Source: Acidobacteriaceae bacterium (lineage in GTDB: Bacteria > Acidobacteriota > Terriglobia > Bryobacterales > Bryobacteraceae). Taken from it: a DNA stretch of 47,726 bases. The translations under genes and the position numbers were made by a program. Positions within the stretch are counted from its first letter, which is position 1. The number at the start of each line of letters is the position of its first letter. The stretch is from positions 1 through 47,726 of the forward strand of contig JAFAMM010000187.1 in assembly GCA_019233375.1 (NCBI GenBank), given 5' to 3'. Shown here piece after piece: positions 39,505 through 46,271 of the stretch. Below the pieces are notes generated by a model. The model was not told the DNA's origin, ran no database searches, and worked only from the letters and a program-made list of their open reading frames with translations.

Positions 39505-39975
39505 ATGAACACCTACCTGAAATTCGGCATTCTCATGGCCGTGATTGTGGGATCGCTGGTCTGGCTTGCAGTCGGGGGGGTCAAAGATACGAAGACGTAT
39601 TACAAGACGATTGCCGAGCTGCAGCAGATGGGCGCGAGCGCGCAGGGCGAGAGGCTCCGCGTGGGCGGCGATATTCAGCCGGGCTCGATTGTCAAAAACG
39701 GTACGCAGGTTTCGTTCACGCTTCATCAGGGCAGTCAGAAGCTGAATGTCATCTACACGGGCGCGGACCCGTTGCCGGATACCTTTCGTGATAACGCGCA
39801 GGCCCTGGCGGACGGCCGCTTAGGTCCGGACGGGGTGTTTGTAGCCAGCAAAATTCAGGCTAAGTGCGCATCCAAATATGAAGCGAAGCCTTCGCAGAAA
39901 GGCCTGTCGCACAGCGCCCCGGATTCGCGGGCGAGCGATGGCGCGCTTACTGGCCGGGCTCTCTCGCACGCGTAG
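39505..39975 (+). CDS. ccmE: CcmE haem chaperone, Cys-type variant
   Basis: Periplasmic haem carrier anchored by one N-terminal span (LKFGILMAVIVGSLVWLAVGG), then an OB-fold (RLRVGGDIQPGSIVKNG; VSFTLHQGSQKLNVIYTG; PDTFRDNAQALADG). The haem-binding motif reads CASKY (C121-Y125), so Cys replaces the usual His of HxxxY. The 30-residue C-terminal tail is Ser/Arg/Ala-rich. 156 residues. It is the first gene of the ccm operon, 24 bp before ccmF. The variant motif is known from Desulfovibrio and archaeal CcmE. Confidence 0.92.
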   Translation: MNTYLKFGILMAVIVGSLVWLAVGGVKDTKTYYKTIAELQQMGASAQGERLRVGGDIQPGSIVKNGTQVSFTLHQGSQKLNVIYTGADPLPDTFRDNAQALADGRLGPDGVFVASKIQAKCASKYEAKPSQKGLSHSAPDSRASDGALTGRALSHA

Positions 39976-39999: not shown

Positions 40000-42015
40000 A
40001 TGGAAAATATCGGCGCCCTTTCGATCCTGCTCGCCTTTTGTCTGGCGGTGTTCTCCGTTGCAGCCGCGGTTACAGGCAAGTACGCCCGGCGCCCCTTTCT
40101 GGTAGTCAGCGCGGAGCGGGCCGTTTACGCGACGTGGGCGCTCTTGACCGCGGCATCCGCAATTCTTATCACCGCACTGATTCAAGGCGATTACCGGCTT
40201 GCTTATGTCGAGAGCCACAGCAATCGCGCGATGTCCGGCGTGTATAAGTTCACTGCGTGGTGGGGCGGGCAGGAAGGCTCGCTGCTGTTCTGGAGCTGGA
40301 TTCTGGCGACCTATTCCGCAATTGTTGTTTACACGAACCGGCGCAAGTTCCGCGAAATGATGCCGCTGGTGGTCGCCATTATGATGGCCACGCTGGCCTT
40401 CTTTATCGGCATGATCACCTTTGTGGCCAGCCCATTTCAGGTGCTGACGATCGGCGGCCGCGGCATCATCGATGTCGGCGACGGAAATGGCTTGAGCCCG
40501 CTGCTGCAGTGGTGGACGATGGCGATTCATCCGCCGATGCTGTATCTCGGGTATGTCGGTTTTACCGTGCCGTTCGCCTTTGCCATGGCGTCGTTGCTCA
40601 CCAAACAACGAGGCGAAGCGTGGATTCACACAACGCGGCGTTGGGCGATCGTGACCTGGCTGTTCCAAAGTACCGGGATCCTGCTTGGCATGGGCTGGGC
40701 GTATACGGTGCTTGGCTGGGGCGGCTATTGGGGTTGGGACCCGGTCGAGAATGCGTCTCTGATGCCGTGGATCACGGCTACCGCTTTCCTGCACTCCGTG
40801 ATGATGCAGGAGAAGAAGGGAATGATGAAGGTCTGGAACATGGTTCTGGTATCAGCCACGTTCCTGCTGAGCATTCTCGGGACTACCTTGACCCGCACCG
40901 GACTGGTGTCGTCCGTGCATGCGTTTGCGCAGTCGCCAGTAAAGCCCTATTTCACGAGCTTCATACTGACGGCTACCGCGCTTACCACAATGGCGATCGT
41001 TTCGAACCTGAAGTACCTGCGCAGCGAGGTTAAGCTTGAAAGCGTCGTTTCGCGCGAATCGAGTTTCCTGTTCAATAACCTGATCCTGCTGGCAAGCTGC
41101 TTCGCGGTGTTATGGGGCACGCTTTTCCCTGTAATTATGGAGGCGATTACCGGAGAAAAGGAAACGATCGATGCACCGTACTACAACCGCGTCAACGTGC
41201 CGATTGCGCTGTTCCTGATCTTTCTGACGGGCGTCGGTCCGCTAATTGCGTGGCGGAAGAGTTCGCTGAGCAGTCTGCGGCGCGCGTTCCTGATCCCCGC
41301 CGTTAGCGGGCTGGTTGTCGTAGTTGGGCTTTTAGCCGGGGGTATCCATGACATCGCCCCGCTGATTTCCTTCGGGCTGTGCGCTTTCGTGCTCGCGACC
41401 ATCTTGAGCGAATTCTGGAAGGGTTCGTACGCGATTCATCTGAAAGAAAAACTCTCGCTGCCGCGTGCAGCCTTTGAGTTGACCTGGCGGAACACACGCC
41501 GTTACGGCGGGTACCTCGTGCACATGGGCGTCGTCATCATGTTTATCGGCTTCACAGGAAGCGCCTTCAATTTGCACGAGACGCGCAGCATCGGTTTGAA
41601 CCAGAGGGTTCGTTTCGGGCGGTACGAGGTGCGTTTGCTGAACGTGAATGAGGGTGAAAACTCCAATTACGCCTTCAATCATGCGACGCTTTCGGTTTTC
41701 GAGGATGGCCGTGAGATCGACCAACTGGAGCCGGAGATCCGGCTTTATAAGTCGAGCCAGCAGCAGGCTTCTATGGTCGGCATCCGGCGGCGCCTGAACG
41801 AAGACCTATACGTAAACTTCTCGGGCATTTCGCCCGACAACACCAAAGCGATCTTCCAGATGTATGTCTTCCCGCTGGTCAGCTGGATCTGGATCGGCTA
41901 TTGGGTGCTGTTATCCGGCACCATCATCTGTTTAATTCCTGGAAAAGTGCGCCTGCAGTATGCGCGCACGGAGGTAGTAGGCATTGCCACAGCGCCGGCG
42001 ACGGTTGAATCTTAA
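40000..42015 (+). CDS. ccmF: CcmF haem lyase subunit
   Basis: Core of the cytochrome c haem ligase, 671 residues with about 15 spans. WWD-type domain WGGYWGWDPVENASLMPW (240-257), flanked by conserved His residues (IHPPM, H177; FLHSVMM, H265). A large periplasmic loop before the last span (GSAFNLHETRSIGLNQ through NEDLYVNFSG) is typical. ccmH begins inside its end (32-bp overlap). Confidence 0.97.
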   Translation: MENIGALSILLAFCLAVFSVAAAVTGKYARRPFLVVSAERAVYATWALLTAASAILITALIQGDYRLAYVESHSNRAMSGVYKFTAWWGGQEGSLLFWSWILATYSAIVVYTNRRKFREMMPLVVAIMMATLAFFIGMITFVASPFQVLTIGGRGIIDVGDGNGLSPLLQWWTMAIHPPMLYLGYVGFTVPFAFAMASLLTKQRGEAWIHTTRRWAIVTWLFQSTGILLGMGWAYTVLGWGGYWGWDPVENASLMPWITATAFLHSVMMQEKKGMMKVWNMVLVSATFLLSILGTTLTRTGLVSSVHAFAQSPVKPYFTSFILTATALTTMAIVSNLKYLRSEVKLESVVSRESSFLFNNLILLASCFAVLWGTLFPVIMEAITGEKETIDAPYYNRVNVPIALFLIFLTGVGPLIAWRKSSLSSLRRAFLIPAVSGLVVVVGLLAGGIHDIAPLISFGLCAFVLATILSEFWKGSYAIHLKEKLSLPRAAFELTWRNTRRYGGYLVHMGVVIMFIGFTGSAFNLHETRSIGLNQRVRFGRYEVRLLNVNEGENSNYAFNHATLSVFEDGREIDQLEPEIRLYKSSQQQASMVGIRRRLNEDLYVNFSGISPDNTKAIFQMYVFPLVSWIWIGYWVLLSGTIICLIPGKVRLQYARTEVVGIATAPATVES

Positions 42016-42514
42016 GCTTCTCGCCGCCTTTGTCATCCCAATTGCCGCGATCGTCGCGCAGGATCCGACTTCGTATCTGACACCGAATGTGCTGCGTGTG
42101 AGCGGGAAGCTGGCCTGCCGCTGCGGCGGCTGCCGGAACACGGTGGGAAACTGCCCGATGCTGCACTGCGAGTTTGCGGACCCGATGCGCCAGCGGATCT
42201 ATGGCATGCAGGGAAAAGGCATGAGCGACAGTGCGATCGTGAGCGCGATTGTCCGCGAACAAGGGATCGTCGCGCTCGCCGCGCCGCCTACCGAGGGGTT
42301 CGGTCCGGTGCTCACTTGGGTGATGCCGGGGATCGCGCTGCTGATCGGCCTATGGATTTATTCGGTCTACGTGCGGCGCAACAGAAAAGATCCGGAACCG
42401 CTGACGGAAGTGGACCGGGCGGTGATTGACCGGTTTCATGTGCAGATCGAGCGGGAACTGGGGGAAGCTGAGGGGGACCCGCCCGCCCCGCGCGCGCCGG
42501 ATAAGCGGACATGA
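41984..42514 (+). CDS. ccmH: CcmH/CycL-type thiol-reductase subunit
   Basis: Reduces the apocytochrome CxxCH cysteines for haem attachment. 176 residues: signal/anchor (LKLLAAFVIPIAAIVAQ), a redox segment KLACRCGGCRNTVGNC (C45, C47, C50, C57; C62 follows), and a membrane span near 110-128 (LTWVMPGIALLIGLWIY). The usual motif is LRCxxC; here it is CRCGGC with extra cysteines. The start is a TTG with GGAGG 9 nt upstream inside ccmF, which is why I chose it. Confidence 0.9.
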   Translation: MPQRRRRLNLKLLAAFVIPIAAIVAQDPTSYLTPNVLRVSGKLACRCGGCRNTVGNCPMLHCEFADPMRQRIYGMQGKGMSDSAIVSAIVREQGIVALAAPPTEGFGPVLTWVMPGIALLIGLWIYSVYVRRNRKDPEPLTEVDRAVIDRFHVQIERELGEAEGDPPAPRAPDKRT

Positions 42515-42936
42515 TGACGGCGATCGCTATTCTGCTGGCGTTGGGCGCACTCTGCTTCACTCTGTTCATTCGGGCGCGTGATATTCCGGAACCGATTCCG
42601 GTGTCGCCTGTTCAACATCTCGAAGACCGTAAGCAAGCGATATACGATAATCTGCGCGATCTTCAATTCGAGTACCGGCTCGGCAAATTGTCCGATGGCG
42701 ATTATCAGCAAACGAAGCAAGCTCTGCAGAAAGAGCTGGCGGTTGTGCTGGCCGAGATGGAAGAGACGATGAAGCGGCTCGGGCTGACGCCGGTGCGCGT
42801 CGGAGCCAAAACTTCAGCAGCGAAGGCGCAAGCGAAGCCAGCGGCGAAACGGACGGTGACGGTATGCCCGCATTGCGGCGCACAATTTCCGCAGGCATTG
42901 AAGTATTGCGGCGAATGCGGGCGTGCGATCGCATGA
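42511..42936 (+). CDS. CcmI-like membrane protein with zinc ribbon
   Basis: 141 residues: an N-terminal span (AIAILLALGALCFTLFI), a CcmI-like helical region (LEDRKQAIYDNLRDLQFEYR; GKLSDGDYQQTKQALQKEL, about 37-78), then an Ala/Lys linker and a C-terminal zinc ribbon CPHCG...YCGECG (C119, C122, C133, C136). Full CcmI has a large TPR domain after the helices; here the zinc ribbon stands in its place. Coupled to ccmH by an ATGA overlap. The role in apocytochrome binding is inference. Confidence 0.8.
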   Translation: MMTAIAILLALGALCFTLFIRARDIPEPIPVSPVQHLEDRKQAIYDNLRDLQFEYRLGKLSDGDYQQTKQALQKELAVVLAEMEETMKRLGLTPVRVGAKTSAAKAQAKPAAKRTVTVCPHCGAQFPQALKYCGECGRAIA

Positions 42937-43946
42937 GAGGCTTTTGGGGGCTGCTGTTGCTGGTTGCGGCGGGCGCGGGGCCGCTGCCGGCGTCGATCGA
43001 CGGAACTGTCGTCAACAGCACAACGGGTAAGCCGCAGGCGGGTGTTACGGTCACGCTAGTGAAGCCGGGGCAGGGCGGGATGCGAACGCTCGGGTCGGCG
43101 ACAACGGATGCGGCGGGGCGCTTCGTGTTCGAGAAAGATGAACCAGGCGGCGGCCCACAACTGCTGCAGGCCAACTACAAGGGCGTCAATTACAACAAGC
43201 TGATGACGCCGAACATACCGACCTCGAACGTCGAGCTGGATGTTTACGAGGCGACAAAATCTCCAGCCGTTGCGCAGATCGCGCAGCACATGATGCTGTT
43301 CGAACCGAGCAGCGGGCGCGTCGCGGTGAGCGAAACGGTTGTCGTGCAGAACAAATCGAACACGACTTACAGCAACGCGGCGCTCGGGAGCCTGCAATTT
43401 TATTTGCCGCCGGCGGCGAACGGACAGGTTCGCGTGAACGCGCAGGGGCCGCAAGGAATGCCGCTGCCGCAGGCCGCGCAGAAAGCGCCGGAGGCCGACA
43501 TGTATAAGGTCGATTTTCCGATCAAGCCGGGCGAGACTGAATTCGAGGTTAATTACTTGATACCGGCGGGCACACCGCAGACCTTCCGCGGGCGCGTCGC
43601 GGGTGTGAAGGGCATGCCGGCCGGTCCACTTCGGCTGATTGCGCCTCCAGGCGTTACGATCACCGGAAAAGATATACAGAACGTCGGTACCGAGCCGAAA
43701 ACGCAAGCGACGGTTTACACGGTAACGGCCGCGGATGCATTCACTGTCGATCTGGCGGGGACGGGATCGCTGCATAGCGAACAAGCAGAGGCGCCCGATA
43801 CGAGTGACGAGCCGCCCGTGCTTGCGGGCAAGCCGCGGATCTATACGCATCTTGGCTGGCTTATCGGTTTGGCGTTCGGCGTTCTCGGCATCGGATTGGC
43901 GGTGCTGTACCGAAGCTCGCCGGTGCGCTCGCCTTACGGCAAATAA
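42933..43946 (+). CDS. Periplasmic anchored protein with carboxypeptidase-regulatory-like domain, unknown
   Basis: 337 residues with a signal peptide (MRGFWGLLLLVAAGAGPLPA). An N-terminal beta-sandwich resembling the carboxypeptidase regulatory (CarboxypepD_reg) domain covers about residues 20-105 (IDGTVVNSTTGKPQAGVTVT; TTDAAGRFVFEKD). A further beta-rich region follows (about 110-300), and a membrane span near the C-terminus (LGWLIGLAFGVLGIGLAVLY) leaves a short cytosolic tail. No cysteines or haem motifs are evident. It overlaps the CcmI-like gene (ATGA) and precedes ccmA by 11 bp, so it is inside the ccm operon. I cannot assign a function. Confidence 0.82.
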   Translation: MRGFWGLLLLVAAGAGPLPASIDGTVVNSTTGKPQAGVTVTLVKPGQGGMRTLGSATTDAAGRFVFEKDEPGGGPQLLQANYKGVNYNKLMTPNIPTSNVELDVYEATKSPAVAQIAQHMMLFEPSSGRVAVSETVVVQNKSNTTYSNAALGSLQFYLPPAANGQVRVNAQGPQGMPLPQAAQKAPEADMYKVDFPIKPGETEFEVNYLIPAGTPQTFRGRVAGVKGMPAGPLRLIAPPGVTITGKDIQNVGTEPKTQATVYTVTAADAFTVDLAGTGSLHSEQAEAPDTSDEPPVLAGKPRIYTHLGWLIGLAFGVLGIGLAVLYRSSPVRSPYGK

Positions 43947-43957
43947 CGCTTATTTTG

Positions 43958-44668
43958 ATGCCGGACGCCATCATTCTGGAGCACGTGTGGAAATTCTATG
44001 GCGATTACGCTGCGTTACGTGATTACACGCTGCCGGTGAGCGCGGGCTCATGCTGCGCGCTGCTAGGCCGAAACGGAGCCGGCAAGACCACACTTCTGCG
44101 CATCCTGGCCGGGCTGTCGCCGTTTCAGCGCGGGAGCGTTCGCGTATTTGGCGAGCAGCCGCGAAGCGACAAGGCGCGGCGGCAACTCGGTTTTCTGGGC
44201 CACGGCATCGGGGTGTATGAAGACCTTTCGGCGCGTGAAAATCTGCGGTTTTTTGCGCAGGTAGCGAGCCTGCGCGATACGGGCGCGACGGTGGAATCGT
44301 GGCTGGAACGTGTGGGGCTCGCGCGCGTGGCTGAAATGCCGGTGCGGCAGTTCTCGCGCGGCATGCGGCAGCGTCTGGCACTGGCGCGAACCTTTCTGCA
44401 CAACCCGGGACTGCTGATTCTGGACGAGCCTTTCACATCGCTGGACGACCGGGCGATTGCGATGCTGAGCGAACTTCTCACCGAGGCACGCGCGCGGGGG
44501 GCGACTATTGTTCTGTCGACCCATCAGCTGCGCGAAGCGCTCGCGATCGCAACGCACGTTGCACTCATTGAAAACGGACGTCTCCGGTACGCCGGCGAAC
44601 GCACGGAAGAGATGCTGAATGACCCCGGGCTGCTGTACCGGCTGCACACCGAACTGGGTGGCGCGTGA
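43958..44668 (+). CDS. ccmA: CcmA haem exporter ATPase
   Basis: ATPase of the CcmABCD complex that releases holo-CcmE. 236 residues: Walker A GRNGAGKTT (37-45), signature FSRGMRQRLALART, Walker B LLILDEPFTSLDD, H-loop STHQ. The start is the ATG after an in-frame TTG at 43955. It follows the unknown 337-residue protein gene and precedes ccmB. Confidence 0.93.
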   Translation: MPDAIILEHVWKFYGDYAALRDYTLPVSAGSCCALLGRNGAGKTTLLRILAGLSPFQRGSVRVFGEQPRSDKARRQLGFLGHGIGVYEDLSARENLRFFAQVASLRDTGATVESWLERVGLARVAEMPVRQFSRGMRQRLALARTFLHNPGLLILDEPFTSLDDRAIAMLSELLTEARARGATIVLSTHQLREALAIATHVALIENGRLRYAGERTEEMLNDPGLLYRLHTELGGA

Positions 44669-44684: not shown

Positions 44685-45365
44685 ATGAGGACGCTTCGGC
44701 AGGCGATCTCAGTTGCGCGCAAAGACCTTGCGATCGAATTTCGGACAAAGGAGTCGCTGAATGCCGCGGGCGCATTTGCGATCGTGATCCTGCTGCTTTT
44801 CAGCTTCGCCTTCGACCCGGCGGCGGAAGCAGTGCGCGAGATCGGCGGCGGTCTCCTGTGGCTTGTTTTTGCGTTCGCGGGCGCGCTGGTGTTCAACCGC
44901 GGTTTTGCGCGCGAACTGCCGAACGAGTGCCTGGACGCGCTGCTCTCCTCACCGCTGTCTGCGTCAAGCCTGCTGATCGGCAAAGCGATGGCGAGCTTCG
45001 TTCTGCTACTGGGGGTGGAGGCGGTCTCACTGGCGGTGTTCGGAATCTTCTATGACATGCGGTGGTGGATACAGCCCTGGCAGCTTGCGGCGGTGTTCGT
45101 GCTGGCGACCTGGGGCATCGCGACGCTCGGCGCAGTTTTTGGCGCGCTGACCGTCAATCTGCGATTGCGCGAGCTGATGCTCCCCATCATCATCTATCCG
45201 CTGCTGATCCCGCTGCTGATAGCGGCGATCGAGCTGACCAACGGGCTGTTCAGCGCGGAGCCGCTCAAGCCGGATCAACTGTTATGGGGCCGTGTGCTGA
45301 TTGTGTTCGATATCGTGTTCACCGCTTTGGCGCTAGCGCTGGCAGAAACGATTCTGGTGAATTAG
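44685..45365 (+). CDS. ccmB: CcmB haem exporter permease
   Basis: Membrane component of CcmABCD, 226 residues with about six spans (AFAIVILLLFSFAF; IGGGLLWLVFAFAGALVFN; the Pro/Leu-rich LPIIIYPLLIPLLIAAIEL). N-terminal FRTKES and ELPNECLDALLSSPLSAS loops match the family. The ATG at 44685 starts 17 bp after ccmA; no strong RBS, so the exact start is uncertain. Confidence 0.92.
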   Translation: MRTLRQAISVARKDLAIEFRTKESLNAAGAFAIVILLLFSFAFDPAAEAVREIGGGLLWLVFAFAGALVFNRGFARELPNECLDALLSSPLSASSLLIGKAMASFVLLLGVEAVSLAVFGIFYDMRWWIQPWQLAAVFVLATWGIATLGAVFGALTVNLRLRELMLPIIIYPLLIPLLIAAIELTNGLFSAEPLKPDQLLWGRVLIVFDIVFTALALALAETILVN

Positions 45366-45386
45366 TCGAAAATGGGAGGAAGCCTT

Positions 45387-46073
45387 ATGCGTGAAAAAGT
45401 CGTTTTCGGCCTGGCCGCGGTCTCCGCTGTGCTCCTCGCCTATGACCTATATCAAATCTTTCTCGTCCTGCCCGACGAAGCCGCGCAAGGAGCGATTTAC
45501 CGGATCATGTTTTTCCACATCCCAGCCGCGATCACCGGGATGATCGGATATTTTGTGGCTCTGACACTGAGTATTCTGTATCTCTCGACGGGGCGGTTGC
45601 GGTACGATTCGCTGGCGGCATCAATCGTCGAGGTTTCTGTCGTTTTCTCGATCGTTAATATCGTGACGGGAAGTATATGGGCACGAGTCATCTGGGGAAT
45701 CTGGTGGACGTGGGATTACCGTCTCACCTCGGCCCTGGTGTGCGTGCTGATTTTTTGCGCGTACCTCATCATGCGGCGTGCGATTGAGGAGCCAACTCAA
45801 CGCGCGCGCCTCTCCGCTGCGCTGTGTATTTTCGGATGTGTAGATGTCGTAATCGTGTGGAAGTCGATTGAGTGGTTTCGGACGCAGCATCCCGGGCCCG
45901 TGCTGAGCATCCGCACAGGAGGCGGCAACATCGATCCCGCGATGGAGCGCATGATTTACCTCAACCTGCTTGCCATTCTGATGATGGCGGCTGCTATGGT
46001 TCTGGTGCGCACGCGGCAGGAGCAGACGGCTCGAGAAATCGACTCTCTTCGCAGGCTTGCGAACGCAGCTTAG
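45387..46073 (+). CDS. ccmC: CcmC haem handling protein
   Basis: Attaches haem to CcmE. 228 residues, six spans, tryptophan-rich WGIWWTWDYRLTS (103-115) and two conserved periplasmic His: H44 (FFHIPAA) and H168 (TQHPGPVLS). GGAGG lies 7 nt before the ATG at 45387, so an upstream in-frame ATG (45372) is unlikely. Followed by ccmD after 15 bp. Confidence 0.96.
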   Translation: MREKVVFGLAAVSAVLLAYDLYQIFLVLPDEAAQGAIYRIMFFHIPAAITGMIGYFVALTLSILYLSTGRLRYDSLAASIVEVSVVFSIVNIVTGSIWARVIWGIWWTWDYRLTSALVCVLIFCAYLIMRRAIEEPTQRARLSAALCIFGCVDVVIVWKSIEWFRTQHPGPVLSIRTGGGNIDPAMERMIYLNLLAILMMAAAMVLVRTRQEQTAREIDSLRRLANAA

Positions 46074-46088: not shown

Positions 46089-46271
46089 ATGGACCCGCGC
46101 AATTTCAGCTTCATGTTTTACGGCTTTCTGGCCGCATGGTTGATCGTGCTGCTGTACGTCATAAGCCTCGCCCGCCGCGGCGCCCGGTTGAAAAAAGAAC
46201 TGGAGGATGTCAAGCAGTTGATCGGTTCCCAGGCTGGTGAGGCTCCGCGCCTCAATGATCGGGTGCGTTGA
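46089..46271 (+). CDS. ccmD: CcmD-like small membrane protein
   Basis: 60 residues with one span (FYGFLAAWLIVLLYVISLA) and a basic cytosolic tail (RRGARLKKELEDVKQ). CcmD holds CcmC and CcmE in the exporter complex. A GGAG element lies 9-12 nt before the ATG. Position after ccmC supports the call, since sequence identity in this family is low. Confidence 0.85.
   Translation: MDPRNFSFMFYGFLAAWLIVLLYVISLARRGARLKKELEDVKQLIGSQAGEAPRLNDRVR

Follow-up and report, generated by a model that had tools for sequence, protein, structure and literature searches.

A ccm operon with a Cys-type CcmE and CcmH, an arrangement that is common in Acidobacteriota

The absence of CcmH was reportedly first proposed in 2006 as a trait of the cytochrome c maturation (Ccm) systems that use a Cys-type CcmE. 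This Cys variant, which occurs in Desulfovibrio, archaea, and others, is called System I* in a 2011 review of System I (PMC3601427). In the part of that review that covers System I*, the majority motif is CPSKY, Acidobacteriota are not named, and about one-third of the bacteria with a Cys-type CcmE are stated to contain CcmH, so the absence of CcmH does not define System I*. A CcmH homolog is also reported for the archaeon Ferroglobus placidus (PMC4429474). In Methanosarcina acetivorans, whose Ccm system is streamlined, the Cys of CcmE is required for haem attachment (PMC9084895). Our literature search for acidobacterial CcmE found no paper and no biochemistry.

Here we describe a ccm operon from an acidobacterium, which lies in a stretch of 47,726 nucleotides (the window). 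The nearest relatives in a scan of named sequences, at 81% identity, are Bryobacterales (phylum Acidobacteriota).

The operon and its host genome

The genes are in the order E-F-H-I-x-A-B-C-D, with CcmH included and CcmG absent (Table 1). As originally predicted, CcmH with a modified redox motif and a CcmI-like protein accompany CcmE, and there is no ccmG among the genes of the window. The operon is rounded off by ccmA, ccmB, ccmC, and ccmD, the last of which was missing from the initial list of open reading frames.

Table 1. Features of the ccm operon (positions in the window).
Feature	Position	Strand	Evidence
ccmE, Cys-type haem chaperone, 156 aa	39505..39975	+	PF03100 E=1.5e-25; sole copy found in the genome
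Haem-binding motif C121-A-S-K-Y125 of CcmE	39865..39879	+	Sequence; aligned with H130...Y134 of E. coli CcmE
ccmF, cytochrome c synthase	40000..42015	+	PF16327/PF01578; four haem-ligand His
ccmH, with C45-x-C47-xx-C50-x6-C57-x4-C62 replacing LRCxxC	41984..42514	+	PF03918, 47 bits; motif comparison
ccmI-like, with a membrane segment, a short coil, and a zinc ribbon at the C-terminus	42511..42936	+	Position and family profile; zinc-ribbon matches below cut-off
Gene x: two beta domains, the first of them transthyretin-like, and a membrane helix at the C-terminus	42933..43946	+	Operon conservation, fold comparison
ccmA, ABC ATPase	43955..44668	+	TIGR01189, 152 bits (cut-off 131.6)
ccmB, start set at an internal Met	44685..45365	+	PF03379 E=6e-29
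ccmC, both haem-ligand His kept	45372..46073	+	TIGR01191, 135 bits, under the cut-off of 186
ccmD (inferred), 60 aa, one TM helix then a basic coil	46089..46271	+	Translation; position and shape

Codon 121 of ccmE is TGC (39865-39867) and the residues around it are AKCASKYEA. In a phmmer alignment with chain 8ce8_E, C121 corresponds to the haem-binding H130 of E. coli CcmE, and Y125 to Y134. Translation, the Pfam match, and this alignment bear out both the predicted CASKY motif and the assignment of the protein to the Cys type. The redox region of CcmH reads LACRCGGCRNTVGNCPMLHC where LRCxxC is expected (pattern LACRCGGC...C...C). The CcmI-like protein has a zinc-ribbon-like segment, CxxC...CxxC, at its C-terminal end. 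The haem-ligand histidines of CcmF are at positions 185, 273, 315, and 516 (H185, H273, H315, and H516, numbered from stop to stop in the open reading frame). These four (equivalent to H173, H261, H303, and H491) and the two of CcmC (equivalent to H60 and H184) are kept in the window proteins and in every relative tested, which places the operon in System I in the wide sense.

With System I*, the operon shares a CxxxY CcmE, a full CcmABCF set, a CcmI-like protein, and the lack of CcmG; it retains CcmH, as PMC3601427 reports for about one-third of Cys-type bacteria. With canonical System I (ccmABCDEFGH of E. coli), it shares the CcmA-F and CcmH families and the histidines of CcmF and CcmC, but its CcmE has CASKY rather than HxxxY (Cys in place of His130), its CcmH lacks LRCxxC, CcmG is absent, and the gene order is different. 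M. acetivorans likewise has a CxxxY CcmE, but its archaeal set is without CcmD, CcmH, and CcmI, all three of which are in the window operon.

For the rest of the host genome (4.79 Mb in 492 contigs, 93.6% complete), our statements rest on profile searches across that genome. No gene exceeded the cut-off of 123 bits for the CcmG/DsbE equivalog (the best score was 63.5) within this 93.6% complete assembly. There are seven thioredoxin-like matches, all of them under that cut-off, and one DsbD. We found no match to PF05140 (ResB), so System II (ResB/CcsBA) was not detected in this genome, and there are 28 matches to Cytochrome_CBB3. Without a ResB match, no maturation system besides the ccm operon was found in the genome; the 28 cytochrome c domain matches point to many likely c-type cytochrome substrates for it.

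CxxxY and HxxxY operons across the phylum

We searched 297 genomes of Acidobacteriota for CcmE with Pfam, regardless of motif, and found it in 186 of them. The motif was read in 91 loci from 79 genomes. CxxxY (as CPSKY, CASKY, CPTKY, or CPSRY) was present in 66 of the 79 genomes, and HxxxY in the other 13; these proportions are indicative, because the sample combines best-scoring loci with at least one locus per family. The original prediction had treated CxxxY as a feature of Desulfovibrio and archaea, which these counts do not support. Its premise that a Ccm system with CxxxY lacks CcmH is not supported either: PMC3601427 gives CcmH to about one-third of such bacteria, and PMC4429474 reports an archaeal CcmH homolog. 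In our survey, a match to PF03918 (CcmH) was found somewhere in the genome for 55 of the 66 CxxxY genomes and for all 13 HxxxY genomes, while 11 of the 66 had none. A Cys-type CcmE does not, then, mean that CcmH has been lost, as had been supposed: most CxxxY genomes of one phylum have a match. The share with CcmH in the operon is below 55 of 66, because some of these genomes (for example, G054) have only a distal homolog with an APCC motif.

This distal homolog, which has APCC instead of LRCxxC or CxCG and lies outside the main operon, was seen in several genomes (L115-L121). In several acidobacterial families, CcmF and CcmH are fused in a single open reading frame of about 825-975 aa (L047, L064, L069, L076, and L077), and many more PF03918 matches fall in open reading frames of that size. 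In another family of the same class, the ccm genes are split between a ccmE-A-B-C locus and a separate locus with ccmF and ccmH together (L034, L036-L046, and L048-L051 against L135-L149).

Within Bryobacterales, CcmH is present in 50 of the 56 loci that extend at least 6.5 kb 3' of ccmE, and the gene order is nearly always the same. These loci were found with the pattern AKC[AP]SKYE and are used for layout and names, not for motif frequency; as the pattern presupposes the Cys, the 80 of 80 CxxxY motifs in that scan are circular. Overall, the common arrangement in Acidobacteriota is a CxxxY CcmE accompanied by CcmH but not by CcmG, and most of the near relatives (Bryobacterales) share this layout. 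Two of the database titles look wrong. CALQCC020000001.1 (L248), from a MAG under the title Bordetella parapertussis, agrees in length and position with a contig from the window's family (G187:C1) and seems to be identical to it, and VFZE01000024.1 (L230), titled Acidimicrobiia, carries an acidobacterial-type ccm operon.

The two types of operon differ in more than CcmE. HxxxY operons in the phylum mostly have the order A-B-C-(D)-E-F-G-H, as against E-F-H-I-(x)-A-B-C for CxxxY operons. The CcmH beside an HxxxY CcmE is of the LRCxxC type, with RCxxCQ in seven of seven cases; in the operon beside a CxxxY CcmE, it has CxCG...C in all 21 that were typed, a count that takes in one locus (L033) whose CcmH also has a later RCPVCQ stretch. 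A CcmG lies between F and H in the HxxxY operons of six of six genomes (93-195 bits). The original prediction had proposed scoring CcmE type against CcmH and CcmG in related genomes. For CcmG, the 14 CxxxY genomes tested have no CcmG-grade match (the best match to the CcmG profile was 71.5 bits). In a CcmF tree of 41 rows, the two types are parted by one change (support 81/82), and the window CcmF falls within the CxxxY set, among those of its family.

Thus, the CcmE ligand, the CcmH motif, and the presence of CcmG travel together in the phylum. Because there is essentially one split, this co-variation reflects co-inheritance and is no proof of functional coupling. The modified CcmH motif is likewise a lineage feature, and in our best explanation, Acidobacteriota inherit E-F-H-I-x-A-B-C-D with CxxxY as a package.

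Interpretation of the operon and of haem attachment

Nothing speaks for a sequencing error at codon 121, and its chance is negligible: the same Cys is present in all 18 of the same-class relatives that we read, without selection on the motif, and this refutes the error. Nor is an HxxxY copy likely to be hidden elsewhere, because PF03100 has no match in the host genome (93.6% complete) beyond the open reading frame at 39505-39975; we rejected this alternative. The original prediction was that the operon combines parts of two system types, as would be the case if a Cys-type CcmE had moved into a canonical HxxxY system with CcmH. The presence of CcmH in an operon with a CxxxY CcmE speaks for such a mosaic. 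However, the window CcmF groups with the CcmF of CxxxY operons and not with those of HxxxY operons, the window CcmH has the CxCG motif, which in our data is confined to CxxxY operons, and the genes follow the order seen in CxxxY operons. The CcmF tree and the CcmH motif already contradict a mosaic, which we consider highly improbable. Instead, we are confident that this is a normal System I* operon that retains CcmH, in which haem would pass from CcmABCD to Cys121 of CcmE and on through CcmF, CcmH, and CcmI. The combination of CxxxY with CcmH was already described in 2011 (PMC3601427) and is ordinary for this lineage, so the operon is no hybrid oddity.

In such a normal System I* operon, a soil acidobacterium would load haem onto its cytochromes with a Cys-type CcmE plus CcmH. 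CcmABCD would hand haem to CcmE in the periplasm. By analogy with D. desulfuricans, M. acetivorans, and E. coli, CcmE would hold the haem via Cys121, probably by a covalent thioether bond, with Tyr125 as a likely axial ligand. The suggestion that haem is held through the Cys was a reasonable one, given what is reported for D. desulfuricans (PMC3601427) and M. acetivorans (PMC9084895). A covalent bond is not assured, because the CcmE of D. vulgaris bound haem non-covalently (as described in PMC3884852). If Cys121 likewise served as a thiolate ligand, CcmE would be a loose chaperone. We think that this is unlikely, as the Cys-type CcmE of D. desulfuricans carries covalent haem (PMC3601427) and the CcmE of M. 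acetivorans shows Cys-dependent haem staining (PMC9084895).

From CcmE with haem bound at Cys121, CcmF together with CcmH and CcmI would then move the haem to CXXCH motifs. DsbD, along with generic thioredoxin-like proteins and CcmH with its many cysteines, probably takes the place of a dedicated CcmG in reducing the thiols. More speculatively, the CcmH of Cys-type systems might be a distinct form rather than a leftover, whose CxCGxC...C co-evolved with the Cys of CcmE and the loss of CcmG. It might have a different redox or metal-dependent job, either releasing thioether-bound haem or reducing the apocytochrome, perhaps with the help of gene x; this is a tentative idea that we consider unlikely. 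The co-variation of CcmE, CcmH, and CcmG offers a tractable comparison for studying the release of Cys-bound haem. This co-variation, the distinct cysteine cluster of CcmH, the CcmF-CcmH fusions, and the conserved gene x are the remaining leads.

Gene x

Among the ccm loci of Bryobacterales, 53 of 56 contain gene x, which has a signal peptide and sits between ccmI and ccmA. In fold comparisons, residues 20-108 are transthyretin-like (Z about 10 to 12), and residues 110-277 resemble, at Z about 10, both the aminopeptidase N-domain and a subunit of an oligosaccharyltransferase; these are generic beta-domain matches that do not indicate a function. Divergent homologs of gene x occur in other families of Acidobacteriota; in some of these homologs, the membrane helix is followed by a coil that resembles CcmI.
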